From Nitratifractor sp. (lineage in GTDB: Bacteria > Campylobacterota > Campylobacteria > Campylobacterales > Sulfurovaceae), in contig WFQO01000141.1 in NCBI GenBank assembly GCA_015486995.1, positions 1-36,644 of the forward strand: a stretch of DNA of 36,644 bases. The letters are read 5' to 3'. Both the position numbers and the translations under genes were made by a program. Positions 2,955 through 10,021 of the stretch are shown here, piece after piece (within the stretch, counting starts at the first letter, position 1; each line of letters starts with the position of its first letter). The notes beneath the pieces were generated by a model. That model saw only the letters and a program-made list of their open reading frames with translations. It did not search any database and was not told the origin of the DNA.

Positions 2955-3464
2955 GTGTTGAAAGCGCTTGGAGTGTGGGTGATGATCGGTCTGGTCTGCC
3001 TGCAGGGGGGAGTGATTGTTCTTCTGGATACGTTTGCCGATAGAGAAGCGGCACAATCCGAAAAAAACAGGGCGGAAACTTATCTGAAAAAAATTTCTCC
3101 CCGGACGGCAGAGGATCTTCTTTTGCGGCGTCAAGGTAGTGAGTGGATTCTTATGGTGAAACCGGCGACCGACGATATGAAATCTTTGGAAGGGGCGCTT
3201 TTGCCGTTGGCGCGCCGTTATCCGAAACTGCTGGTGATGCCTTCAGAGGGGGAGCCTCTTGCAAAAAGCGGAAAGAAAGTGCAAAGAGAGATCCCTTTCG
3301 TTGTTTCACGCAAGGCACTCATCGCGGGAATCGCAGGAGCGGTCCTCCTTGTACTGGCCTGGTTCGCCATGAGGATTCGCCGTCTCGGAAATATACGGAA
3401 TACGGCAGGAAAAATGGAGAAGCGTTTCGAAGAGATCAGGAGGAGACTGAATGAACAATCGTGA
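2955..3464 (+). CDS. uncharacterised two-TM membrane protein with a short extracytoplasmic domain
   Basis: GTG at 2955 after SD GAAGGAGGAG (2941-2950); TM near the N-terminus and at FVVSRKALIAGIAGAVLLVLAWF, then a basic/coiled tail. Overlaps the next gene by 14 nt. Confidence 0.7.
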   Translation: MLKALGVWVMIGLVCLQGGVIVLLDTFADREAAQSEKNRAETYLKKISPRTAEDLLLRRQGSEWILMVKPATDDMKSLEGALLPLARRYPKLLVMPSEGEPLAKSGKKVQREIPFVVSRKALIAGIAGAVLLVLAWFAMRIRRLGNIRNTAGKMEKRFEEIRRRLNEQS

Positions 3465-5940
3465 TTGGAAAAGAGTTTTTCGCCGGGTATTTCCTCTGGC
3501 GGCGGGAGTGGTTCTGACGGTAACGATCGGAAGAGCGGAGACGATTTTCTTGCTGAAGTCTTCCGCCTCCGTTCAGCCGCTGAAAAGTGAGGAGATAGCG
3601 TTGAAGCGTAAGATCGGAGGGGACGAACATCTTGCCGATCTTGCGAAACGACTCGGCTTTTCCCTGAGGATTCGTCAGGTGGGAAAGGAGTATTATCTGG
3701 TGGGCGGTCCGGTCGCCGACAGTTTCGAGGCGGCACTGTTTGCCTGGAAACTGCGTGCTCTCTCACCCGGAGCGATCGCCCTGACGCTTCCGACTCCTCC
3801 TTCGCATGTCACTCTCCCCTCTTCTACCGTGGCCGTTTCACCGGATGAAGAGCTTCCCCGGCTCTGGATCGCTCTTTTCGCTTTGGCTTTGATCGGAGTG
3901 TTGGGGCTTTATGTCTCATCCCAACAGCTACGAAAAATCCAGGAGCGTTTCGAGGGGATGAAGAGGAGCCAGGAAGAGATAGAGAAGCAACTCAGCGGTT
4001 TCCTGACGACCGTGAGTGAAGAGATCTACAGTATGAGCAAGGAGGCGAATACCCAACTGGGGAAACTGGTTCGGAAAAGGAAAAGTGAATCGCTGGATGA
4101 AAACCTCAAACAGGTGATGCAGATCGAAAACAAAATTCTCGACAATTCGATGCATCTTCTCAATTTTCTGCGCCTAAAAGCCCATAAAATTGCATTGCGC
4201 GAAGAGCCTTTCGATCTGAATACGATGCTGGGAGACGTCCTGACAGCGCTACATGAGAGGATCGCTCCGAGTGACAAAGAACTGATCTTCGATCTCGAGC
4301 GGGATCTCCCACGCAAGGTCATGGGAGATTTCACCCACAGTGTCGAAATACTGAGCAATTTACTGGAAGAGGCACTTGTGAGTACCCGGGGTGAGGATGT
4401 CCAGCTTTCTCTTTCGGCGTTTCGTCCCTATACGGAACAGGGAGAGTTGCGTTTTCGGATCACGTATCTGGCGGCGGATGACGCATTCGATCCCGAGACT
4501 TTCTTTGTACCTCAACGCGACGAGGAGACGGGAGAGTATCGTAATATGGGGCTTTATGTGGCCAAAGAGTTGAGCGATCTGATGGGCGGGACTCTTCGGG
4601 CAGGATCGGCGGCTGGAGGTCATCTGCGACTTCTTGATCTGATGCTTCCGCTCGCTTCGGCGGAAAAGGAGGGAGAACAGCGACGCTATCGTCTACCTGA
4701 ACGGGAGTTGACCCGCAAAGAGATCCTCATCGTCACCCACAACGAGATCGCGTCGGAAGCGTTGCGTAAACTTTTCGCCTATTACCGACATAGGGTGACG
4801 CTCATGAATCTTGTGCATTTTGAGTCGAAGCGCCCCTCCCTGGAGCGTTTCGATCTCGTCGTTCTTGATGAGACGCTCATCGACAATCTCTTCGTGGAGT
4901 ATGTGCGTTCGATTCAAAGAGAGAGCGATGTCCGTATTGTGGCCTTGCACAACCTTTTTCAACCGCCGCGTCTTCTTCCCGAAGATGTCGTCAGTGCCAT
5001 GCTCAGAAAACCGGCCACACTTCTGGATGTCTACAACCTCATTGTAGATCTTTACGCTCCTCGAAAACCGGTTGAGAGCGAAGAGACGAGAGGGGAAGAG
5101 GAAGCGGATCGGAGCCGAACCTTCCATGCGGATTTCCCGGCCAAAAAGGAGGTGACCCTGAAAGATTTTCGGCATTTTGCCGGAACCCGCCTGCTTATCG
5201 TCGAAGACAATCCTCTCAATCTCAAGATGATTTTGAAAGTACTGGAAGATTCGGGCATCAGGATCGAAACGGCGGAAAACGGATTGAAAGCGGTAGAGAG
5301 TATCGAACGGCACTCTGCGGGAAGTTTCGATCTGGTTTTGATGGACATCAATATGCCGGTCATGGACGGATATCAGGCGACCCGTCTCATTCGGCAATCA
5401 CGTTCGGGGGTAGAGCTGCCGATCGTCGCACTTTCAGCCCTCAACCTGGAAAATGAAATTCAGCGAATGCGCGACGCGGGAATGGACGGGTATTTGCCCA
5501 AACCTATCGACCTGGGCAAACTCTACACGGCCTTTGCGACCTATCTCGAAGCCAAAAAAGTTCCCATTATACGAGAGGAGAAGACGAGCCGTGCTCCCGT
5601 CGAATATCGTACGATCGATTACAAAAAAGCGTTACAGTACTGTAGCGGTAACGCGACGCTTCTCGAAGAGATTCTGGAGAGTTTCGTCGATGCCTACGGC
5701 GAGAGTGATCGGAATCTGAGTCGTCTGCTTCAACGGAAGGAATACGAAGAGATGCGCAAGGTTTTGCTCGATCTTCTCGGAATCAGCGGCACCATTGCCG
5801 CAGAGGATCTTCACAAGCGAGTCAAAGCCTTCTATCGAGACATTCTCCTGCACCGTTTCGACGATCTCCCCCAGCGTCTGAAGGAGTACTCTTCGGCGCT
5901 GAAAGTACTCTGCGAAGAGATCAGGCAGAAGCGTTCCTAG
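3451..5940 (+). CDS. membrane hybrid histidine-kinase-like protein with degenerate kinase core, pseudo-receiver, intact receiver and degenerate Hpt-like C-terminus
   Basis: 829 aa; two TMs, HisKA-like FLTTVSEEIYSM, HATPase-like SNLLEEALVST/GLYVAKELSDLMGG, receiver LLIVEDNPLNLKM...LVLMDINMPVMDGYQATR...LSAL...KPIDL, Hpt-like LLDLLGISGTIAAEDL. Confidence 0.85.
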   Translation: MNNRDWKRVFRRVFPLAAGVVLTVTIGRAETIFLLKSSASVQPLKSEEIALKRKIGGDEHLADLAKRLGFSLRIRQVGKEYYLVGGPVADSFEAALFAWKLRALSPGAIALTLPTPPSHVTLPSSTVAVSPDEELPRLWIALFALALIGVLGLYVSSQQLRKIQERFEGMKRSQEEIEKQLSGFLTTVSEEIYSMSKEANTQLGKLVRKRKSESLDENLKQVMQIENKILDNSMHLLNFLRLKAHKIALREEPFDLNTMLGDVLTALHERIAPSDKELIFDLERDLPRKVMGDFTHSVEILSNLLEEALVSTRGEDVQLSLSAFRPYTEQGELRFRITYLAADDAFDPETFFVPQRDEETGEYRNMGLYVAKELSDLMGGTLRAGSAAGGHLRLLDLMLPLASAEKEGEQRRYRLPERELTRKEILIVTHNEIASEALRKLFAYYRHRVTLMNLVHFESKRPSLERFDLVVLDETLIDNLFVEYVRSIQRESDVRIVALHNLFQPPRLLPEDVVSAMLRKPATLLDVYNLIVDLYAPRKPVESEETRGEEEADRSRTFHADFPAKKEVTLKDFRHFAGTRLLIVEDNPLNLKMILKVLEDSGIRIETAENGLKAVESIERHSAGSFDLVLMDINMPVMDGYQATRLIRQSRSGVELPIVALSALNLENEIQRMRDAGMDGYLPKPIDLGKLYTAFATYLEAKKVPIIREEKTSRAPVEYRTIDYKKALQYCSGNATLLEEILESFVDAYGESDRNLSRLLQRKEYEEMRKVLLDLLGISGTIAAEDLHKRVKAFYRDILLHRFDDLPQRLKEYSSALKVLCEEIRQKRS

Positions 5941-6457
5941 AGGGAGGGAAAAGAAAATTCTCTTTTTCCCATTGCCCGCTCGAGAGAGCACGAGAGAAGT
6001 GGGTAACTTTCCACTCTTTGTCATTATGTTCGAGCAGGGCGCATTCGCTTCGGTTCCCCTCCCGAGCGCAAATCTCCCCGGGGTTGAGGTAGAGGCTTGA
6101 TCCTTTGAGCTCACAGGCGAAACGATGAGTGTGTCCGTAGACGATGAGATCGGTGTCGGGGGTGAGGTAGTAGGGTAGGTGCATCAATTTGATCGTCAGT
6201 GCATCGATTTTCAGATACCAAGGTTCTTTCTTGATGCGATACCGGGAAGCGAGGGGAAGCAGAGATCGGTCGTTATTGCCGAAGACTGCGGCGTAGGGAA
6301 GCCCTGTTGCTTCCAGTTGCCGCAGATTCTCTTCGACGCAGAAATCGCCCGCGTGAAGCAGAGTGCGGGCTCCCTCCTCCAGAAGTTTTTCCAGGGCACT
6401 TTTTTGCAGATCGCTGCGACGGTGGGGATCGGAGAGGATGCCGATTTTCAGACTCAT
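5921..6457 (-). CDS. YfcE/MJ0936-type metallophosphoesterase
   Basis: GILSDPHRR, LLHAGDFC, VFGNND, VYGHTHRF and LNPGE motifs; 178 aa. Confidence 0.9.
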   Translation of the reverse strand: MSLKIGILSDPHRRSDLQKSALEKLLEEGARTLLHAGDFCVEENLRQLEATGLPYAAVFGNNDRSLLPLASRYRIKKEPWYLKIDALTIKLMHLPYYLTPDTDLIVYGHTHRFACELKGSSLYLNPGEICAREGNRSECALLEHNDKEWKVTHFSRALSSGQWEKENFLFPPSRNASA

Positions 6458-8544: not shown

Positions 8545-8649
8545 GTTTCTTCCTTTAGCTCAGACTGATGACGTATTTCTCTTTGAAAGACGATTATACT
8601 TTCTCTATTTTAAAAGACCGATGAGGGGGAGAGTAAACGGCTCCTTGGT

Positions 8650-8655
8650 TATAAT
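8650..8655 (+). promoter_or_regulatory. -10 element (TATAAT) of the M23 peptidase gene
   Basis: TTGGTTATAATTCCCGCC about 38 nt before GTG. Confidence 0.55.
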
Positions 8656-8692
8656 TCCCGCCAAAAAAGCGCAATGGGCCAGGGAGAGAACG

Positions 8693-10021
8693 GTGAAGAG
8701 ATTCTGGATGGTGATTCTACTGACAAGTATGGTACTTTGGAGTGCCGAAGTCCATCGCAGTCACTGGAAGAGCGGCGAAACCTTTTCCGAATATCTCCAG
8801 CGTTACGGAATCTCTCAGGATCTGCTCAAAAGCATCAGCGACGACGACAGCAAATACCTCTCCGAGATCCAGGGGGGAGAGCCTTTTTACGAGATGCTTG
8901 AGGGATCGACGTTGATTGACGCGCTGATCCCTATCGGGGAGGAGATGCAGATCGAACTCTCCCGGGATCTACGCAGCGGTCGCTACCGCTTCGACATCGT
9001 TCCCATCGTCTATCGGAAAGTCGAGGATGAAGTCCTGGTACGGATCGAGAGAAATTGCTACAGCGACATCGATCGCCTTACTCGCAATCCCCGTTTGGGA
9101 TTTCTTCTCAAACGTCTCTACAAAGGATCGGTGGATTTTCGTAAATTTAGGGCAGGGGACAAAATAGCCTTCGTCTATAGTCAGAAAAGTCGTCTGGGGC
9201 AGCCCTGGGGCCCGCCCCATATCCGGGGAGCCGTCGTCGAGGGACGGCGGGGCAAACCCCGCTTTATTTTTGTCGACGAGGAGGGAAACGCCTGGCGGGA
9301 CATCCGCAAAACCATCCGTAAAACGAAAACGGCCAAAAAACGGGTGGAGTACAGCACGACTCGAACGATCCGTATCCGGCAGCGTGGGGCGAGTCGCTTC
9401 GTCAGACCGATCCCCGGAGCGCGGATCACCTCCCGTTTCTCCTACAAGCGATGGCATCCGATTCTGCACCGGTATCGTCCTCATCTCGGTGTTGATTTCG
9501 GGGCCCGTCGAGGGACCCCGATCCATGCCACGGGAAGCGGCCGGGTGATCTACGCCGGGTGGATGCGCGGATACGGCAAAGTGGTCAAGATCGATCACGG
9601 TCGCGGCTATGTCTCTCTCTATGCGCATCAAAGCCGGCTGAAGGTTCGACGGGGAAGTTACGTCAAGCGGGGAGAGGTGATCGGTTATGTCGGAAGTACG
9701 GGGCGAAGCACCGGACCCCATCTGCACTTCGGTCTCTATCGCAACGGTCGGGCCGTCGATCCGCTGAAAGTTTTGGGACGGGGCTCCGGACCTCTCTATG
9801 TGACCCGCAGAATCACCACACACCATACGAAGATCCAGAGCTACACCAAAATCACCAAACACACCGTCCCGATCAAAGGGGCGGCGGCGATGAAAAAACG
9901 TCTTAAAAAACTTTTGGAGGGGTCGAAACCGCATGCCTTTCGCTGGGAAGTGATCGCCGAGAACTTGATCCATGTGGAGGATCGTAACGTTTCGGCGCGG
10001 GAGGAAAATTTGACGCATTAA
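8693..10021 (+). CDS. M23 family (LytM) peptidoglycan metallopeptidase, Csd3-like
   Basis: N-terminal signal; HLGVDFGARRGTPIHATGSGRVIYAG...GPHLHFGLYRNG with all Zn-ligand motifs; GTG start at 8693. Confidence 0.9.
   Translation: MKRFWMVILLTSMVLWSAEVHRSHWKSGETFSEYLQRYGISQDLLKSISDDDSKYLSEIQGGEPFYEMLEGSTLIDALIPIGEEMQIELSRDLRSGRYRFDIVPIVYRKVEDEVLVRIERNCYSDIDRLTRNPRLGFLLKRLYKGSVDFRKFRAGDKIAFVYSQKSRLGQPWGPPHIRGAVVEGRRGKPRFIFVDEEGNAWRDIRKTIRKTKTAKKRVEYSTTRTIRIRQRGASRFVRPIPGARITSRFSYKRWHPILHRYRPHLGVDFGARRGTPIHATGSGRVIYAGWMRGYGKVVKIDHGRGYVSLYAHQSRLKVRRGSYVKRGEVIGYVGSTGRSTGPHLHFGLYRNGRAVDPLKVLGRGSGPLYVTRRITTHHTKIQSYTKITKHTVPIKGAAAMKKRLKKLLEGSKPHAFRWEVIAENLIHVEDRNVSAREENLTH

Follow-up and report, generated by a model that had tools for sequence, protein, structure and literature searches.

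A putative family of membrane pseudo-histidine kinases with one conserved receiver domain and an overlapping companion gene

What is the purpose of a receiver domain whose own kinase is dead? This question is raised by an 829-aa protein encoded in the window (the whole 36,644-nucleotide stretch of DNA that was analysed), which the first-pass annotation had described as a hybrid histidine kinase that has lost both phospho-histidines and kept its receiver Asp. Few pseudo-histidine kinases have been described in bacteria (DivL, RetS-like proteins), and a search of a collection of papers for Campylobacterota hybrid kinases or SPOR kinases found none on the present family. Judged by its sequence, the protein descends from a hybrid histidine kinase with the domain order DHp-CA-REC1-REC2-Hpt. 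It is a member of a family of membrane pseudokinases in sulfur-vent bacteria (Nitratifractor, Sulfurovum) in which both kinase histidines have been permanently lost. The features of the locus are collected in Table 1.

Table 1. Features of the pseudokinase gene and of its upstream companion, in window coordinates.
Feature	Position	Strand	Evidence or remark
Companion gene: signal/TM, SPOR-like periplasmic domain, TM helix, short cytoplasmic coiled coil	2955..3464	+	GTG start, AAGGAGGAG upstream
Pseudo-hybrid histidine kinase, 829 aa	3451..5940	+	ATG start, preceded by AGGAGGAG
Periplasmic SPOR-like domain, residues 30-114	3538..3792	+	beta-alpha-beta-beta-alpha-beta; AlphaFold pLDDT 84
Transmembrane helix and coiled coil, residues 138-183	3862..3999	+	sequence LWIALFALALIGVLGLYV; long helix 131-208 in AlphaFold model
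Pseudo-DHp, H-box lost, residues 184-246	4000..4188	+	alignments; dN/dS 0.026
Glu190 at phospho-His position	4018..4020	+	codon GAA
Pseudo-ATPase (CA) domain, residues 247-404	4189..4662	+	HATPase_c E=1e-4
Glu307 in place of second N-box Asn	4369-4371	+	alignment
Pseudo-receiver REC1, residues 422-537	4714..5061	+	receiver fold in model; acidic pair missing
Intact receiver REC2, residues 578-700	5182..5550	+	Pfam Response_reg E=2e-27; D632, K684 invariant
Asp632, predicted phospho-acceptor	5344..5346	+	codon GAC; 60/60 core relatives
Pseudo-Hpt helical bundle, residues 718-829	5602..5937	+	helices in model; Hpt motif without His
Leu773-Asp774: hydrophobic residue at Hpt His site and family-invariant Asp	5767..5772	+	alignment

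REC2 is the only domain of the protein that scores above its Pfam cut-off. The HATPase_c match falls below it (23 vs 26.4 bits), and HisKA and Hpt gave no Pfam match in the 829 residues. The codons at the four positions named in the first-pass annotation encode exactly the residues it claimed: GAA at 4018-4020, CTC at 5767-5769 and 5776-5778 and GAC at 5344-5346; the two CTC codons place Leu773 at the Hpt His position and Leu776 at the Hpt Lys position. In the alignment the H-box frame M-S-H-E-I corresponds to V-S-E190-E-I with the following Ile in register, so the change is a substitution; a deletion of the H-box was ruled out, as the neighbouring columns are in register. The stretch reads EEIYS and does not contain the HExxT phosphatase motif of the RetS type. 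The ATPase core has no DxGxG motif, REC1 is degenerate, with THNE where its acidic pair is expected, and the His of an unorthodox BarA/ArcB-type Hpt is missing. The second receiver, which had been proposed to be intact, does contain the complete catalytic set (E585, D586, D632, S662 and K684). Among the features of a functional hybrid kinase, the H-box His and the N and G1 boxes are thus missing, and the receiver Asp and Lys are present. Since there is no DHp His, no N-box Asn and no DxGxG, no autophosphorylation is expected. The pseudokinase should be unable to autophosphorylate or to relay phosphate through its own Hpt, and Asp632 in REC2 is predicted to be its only intact phosphorylatable site.

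Modelling by AlphaFold, a check proposed in the first-pass annotation, still forms every domain fold despite the lost catalytic residues: a periplasmic alpha/beta domain, a long membrane, coil and DHp helix, the ATPase, two receivers and a C-terminal helical bundle (mean pLDDT 78, from a 24-sequence alignment). The model therefore suggests that the folds have been preserved while the chemistry has been lost.

Homologues were drawn from the relatives of the genome, from named genomes and from a class-wide sample, and 116 were aligned; most of the genomes in the comparison are metagenome bins. Counts refer to a core set of 63 relatives (Sulfurovaceae), over the rows readable at each column. The H-box position is Glu in 61/62 readable core rows and Gln in one. 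The Hpt His position is occupied by Leu, Val, Ile, Phe, Glu or Asn and by His in 0/58, and Asp774, which directly follows it, is invariant (58/58). The N-box Asn is replaced by Tyr or His in most members, and REC1 has lost its acidic pair and, in more than half of the rows, its Asp as well. Column 191 is mostly Asn. REC2 is retained, with Asp632 in 60/60, Lys684 in 59/59 and Ser/Thr662 in 60/61 rows. The loss of both phospho-histidines and the retention of the receiver Asp therefore hold family-wide, and a search of the orthologue alignment for His in the H-box and Hpt columns leaves the loss standing within the family; Hpt His is present in a sister group (L149-L151). The REC2 counts give good support to the suggestion that the protein may be an acceptor of phosphate from another kinase.

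The order of these losses can be read from a tree of 94 rows, which was calculated by a quick method with the H-box and Hpt columns left out. All 23 His-bearing kinase rows fall on one side of a single branch, with moderate support (85, quick method), and the H-box-loss clade on this tree comprises at least 68 rows. On this topology the H-box His was lost once, in an old event. In the sister group the H-box is already Glu and the Hpt His is intact (LAHDIKG), which places the loss of the H-box before that of the Hpt. The ATPase core is degenerate, as had been claimed, in the window protein and its Nitratifractor-type clade, where the G1 Asp is present in 0/14 members and the Hpt Lys is likewise lost; the claim does not extend in full to the other clades, which mostly retain the G1 Asp (48/56). 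Most members, including all but 6/56 of those in the other clades, lack the Mg-binding N-box Asn, so the ATP site decayed in steps.

The sister group has a tandem pair of genes (L149:1943-3466 and 3390-6080, also in L150 and L151). The first encodes a soluble protein with an ATPase-like domain (DYGVGMD) and no DHp, the second a membrane pseudokinase with the Glu H-box and intact Hpt His. A diverged homologue in two further genomes (L020 and L021, in G022 and G031) has the reverse pattern of decay, its ATPase is nearly intact and its receiver Asp is changed to Asn (ILNLNLP). The nearest His-bearing kinases include a 917-aa paralogue in the same genome (L051:1034-3784, G000:C183), which shares the degenerate REC1. 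This paralogue has an intact H-box and ATPase and has lost its Hpt His, which is retained in its relatives L056 and L067.

Purifying selection on the pseudokinase is strong. Compared with its nearest relative (G005, 90% identical) the overall dN/dS is 0.088, and by domain it is 0.026 for DHp, 0.041 for CA, 0.040 for REC2, 0.068 for the pseudo-Hpt and 0.19 for the periplasmic domain. The dead domains are among the most constrained, which implies that they are still functional, most plausibly in binding.

The 3' end of the companion gene overlaps the start of the pseudokinase gene by 14 nt, and what would correspond to the H-box region lies just beyond the end of the companion protein. In a profile-profile comparison (E=1.5e-18, probability 99.1) the companion matches the N-terminus of the pseudokinase over the whole stretch between signal helix and coiled coil, both included; by sequence the companion is a truncated copy of the pseudokinase's own front half. 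Profile searches found it adjoining 17/17 core members that have the periplasmic domain and readable flanks, and beside 0/46 core members without this domain; seven long-form outliers outside the core have no companion. With the outliers included, the association of companion and periplasmic domain gives a Fisher p of 4e-11, which is only a guide because the rows are related. The companion lies between or beside pseudokinase copies in G003, G004 and G007. Two loci contain tandem full-length pseudokinases with a companion gene in between (L037:4766-10283, L039:6442-12038). In the simplest reading the companion is a truncated paralogue and would form a mixed membrane complex with the pseudokinase. 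This partner-like upstream gene, an overlapping copy of the front half, was absent from the first-pass annotation, as were the single old loss event, the degenerate REC1 and the kinase overlap in two other genomes that is described below.

In the periplasmic domain that companion and pseudokinase share, strands and helices follow one another as in a SPOR domain. Foldseek searches with this domain matched the SPOR domains of CwlC and RlpA (prob 0.99/0.96) with weak statistics (E about 0.04). These are the best natural structural matches by TM-score among the matches listed, with TM 0.48/0.60 to 1x60, and designed ferredoxin folds rank above it. The Pfam SPOR family (PF05036) does not match the window domain and matches 2/14 relatives weakly (best E=0.003), and a sequence search of the domain against solved structures gave no match.

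No operon partner was found in the genus: the neighbours are bioB and genes for a phosphoesterase, a glcD-like oxidase, a pgbA-like protein and csd3, and the only signalling gene is the companion. The conserved downstream block (phosphoesterase, glcD-like, pgbA-like, csd3) includes a Csd3-type M23 peptidoglycan peptidase at window positions 8621-10021, which may bear on the SPOR-like domain. In G021 and G030, both from a single other genus, the pseudokinase gene overlaps the next gene by a few bases, and that gene encodes a canonical hybrid kinase with an intact H-box (FFANMSHEIRTP) and intact N and G boxes; a kinase neighbour occurs only there, with none adjacent in the window's genus. The H-box of this kinase lies at about residue 31-40, so it has no sensor or membrane part of its own. 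The overlap of a sensorless kinase with the pseudokinase suggests that anchoring in the membrane and control come from the pseudokinase. The other genes around this kinase in G030, which by eye look like NAD kinase and RecN, offered no clue to function.

Active-looking kinases are also present in the window's genome (G000:C139, 1022 aa; C183, 917 aa; C26, 1263 aa, with its Hpt intact). The closest is that of G000:C139, with 44% identity over the kinase core; it also occurs in genomes without the pseudokinase and is therefore only a candidate partner. A separate family of about 360-395 aa is represented by L071:2599-3705 (G000:C139) and its relatives L072, L023, L024, L068 and L026. It consists of a transmembrane helix, a linker, an intact receiver and a pseudo-Hpt, in which the same hydrophobic-Asp pair replaces His-x (e.g. 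LAVDLEG, LLIDLNG). This family is also found in genomes without the pseudokinase, and what looks by eye like an ABC-F ATPase beside its gene was of no help in assigning a function.

We therefore favour, at a probability of about 0.55, a RetS-like pseudokinase, a membrane-bound protein whose receiver would accept phosphate from an active kinase and which would modulate that kinase. The coiled coil and pseudo-DHp would most likely associate with an active hybrid kinase, and phosphoryl groups would move from the histidine of that partner onto REC2. We infer the direction of the effect from RetS and GacS: the pseudokinase would drain phosphate from its partner and modulate it allosterically, and its pseudo-DHp and pseudo-Hpt would be docking surfaces. 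Where the SPOR-like domain is present, the companion would join the pseudokinase in the membrane and complete its sensory part. Consistent with this proposal are the strict retention of the REC2 catalytic set while the other sites died, the one H-box loss on the tree with dN/dS of 0.03-0.07 in the dead domains, the structural matches to ShkA, RetS, GacS and DivL with the precedent of RetS REC2 (PMC5992135), the overlap with a sensorless canonical kinase in G021 and G030, the overlapping and homologous companion, and the active-looking kinases of the same genome. Against it, the partner kinase is not adjacent in the window's genus, RetS retains an H-box and HExxT, both of which the pseudokinase is without, and the G022/G031 homologue has no REC2 Asp.

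The signal may instead run from the inside of the cell outwards. REC2 would then get its phosphate from a soluble Hpt or from acetyl phosphate, with no kinase as target, and the reshaped REC2-pseudo-Hpt part would signal by way of the coil and the transmembrane helix to the companion and the SPOR-like domain, with the cell wall as one possible destination. The short-form members without any sensor domain suggest that REC2 may be the input. The separate family described above shares the receiver and the hydrophobic-Asp Hpt in the same genomes, and 2.7 kb downstream, within the block that the genus has conserved, is the homologue of a Csd3-type cell-wall peptidase. We regard this as possible, though unlikely: the high constraint on pseudo-DHp and pseudo-CA (dN/dS 0.026 and 0.041) is hard to square with mere linkers, the SPOR assignment is weak and the Csd3 neighbourhood is not common to other genera. 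That the G022/G031 homologue has been retained without its REC2 Asp implies that phosphorylation is not required in every lineage, and would fit a scaffold whose domains are protein-binding surfaces only, with REC2 kept for its fold. Such a scaffold is distinctly unlikely, as about 60 sequences show virtually no variation at D632, K684, S/T662 and the acidic pair, which exceeds the needs of a fold.

We consider quite improbable a DivL-like reading, in which a stand-alone receiver, once phosphorylated, would dock in trans on the pseudo-DHp and its fixed Glu, and the pseudo-DHp would pass that state on to a partner kinase. The pseudo-DHp is the most constrained domain, and DivL without its His binds DivK~P through its DHp with kinase activity unneeded (PMC4211667); however, DivL has a Tyr, keeps its other motifs and has no receiver, and such a model does not need the strictly kept receiver in cis. 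It is very improbable that the protein is a still-active kinase with its acceptor shifted three residues downstream to His193. This residue is found in 36/63 relatives and is frequent in the Sulfurovum members, but the window protein has Tyr193, most members have Tyr or His for the N-box Asn, and the Hpt His is gone. The several dead sites might also point to a decaying pseudogene or an assembly error, to which we give next to no weight. The frame is open with good translation signals, the dN/dS is 0.09, and over 60 relatives as well as an independent genome bin carry the same residues; this conservation refutes an error, and with the dN/dS it rules out decay.

More widely, and only tentatively, the pseudokinase could be seen as a dead kinase rebuilt into a membrane device dedicated to receiving phosphate. 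A receiver and pseudo-Hpt would form a read-out cassette, perhaps common to the pseudokinases and to the separate TM-REC-pseudo-Hpt family of the same bacteria. The cassette would be set on a paired SPOR-like membrane sensor, conceivably made of the pseudokinase and the truncated copy of its own front half. Across dozens of genomes the conserved clade shows a readable order of decay of the kinase site, ATP site, REC1 and Hpt while one receiver stayed perfect, and it makes the purpose of a receiver whose own kinase is dead directly testable. Natural intermediates exist in the Hpt His of L149-L151, the G1 Asp of Sulfurovum and the lost receiver Asp of G022/G031.

In Foldseek searches with the full model ShkA is the best match, followed by RetS, and GacS and DivL are among the top 40. 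RetS, of Pseudomonas aeruginosa, has a degenerate ATPase, and its REC2 D858 receives phosphoryl groups from the DHp His of GacS (PMC5992135). RetS is the best functional model; both are membrane hybrid kinases with a DHp, a degenerate ATPase and two receivers of which the REC2 Asp is in use in RetS. Unlike the pseudokinase, RetS keeps its H-box His and HExxT motif and has no Hpt, a different periplasmic domain and no front-half companion.

DivL of Caulobacter has lost its His and binds DivK~P through the DHp with no need for kinase activity, and is a precedent for a DHp without His acting as a binding sensor (PMC4211667). As in the pseudokinase, the phospho-His is replaced by one nearly fixed residue family-wide, and the protein is kinase-dead with the DHp-CA fold kept (structure 4q20). 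The residue in DivL is Tyr (or Ala) and not Glu, its other catalytic motifs are kept, and it has no receiver or Hpt; in place of its PAS sensors the pseudokinase has the SPOR-like domain and transmembrane helix. RcsD is a membrane protein with a degenerate pseudo-transmitter before its Hpt, it works by an active Hpt His and has no working receiver. It is the reverse case of the pseudokinase, which has no Hpt His and has kept a working-type receiver; an active Hpt of the RcsD type is found only in the sister group L149-L151.

ShkA, also from Caulobacter, shares the order DHp-CA-pseudo-REC1-REC2 but is an active kinase, its REC1 binds c-di-GMP and it has no Hpt (PMC7010744). The subfamily II ethylene receptors (e.g. 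ETR2) likewise sit in a membrane and have a histidine kinase domain that is degenerate, and a receiver is found in some of the isoforms (PMC4730734). These are proteins of the plant ER with a GAF domain and no Hpt, and are not close relatives. In the extent of its losses the pseudokinase surpasses both RetS and DivL, as its H-box, ATPase, REC1 and Hpt are all predicted to be inactive.
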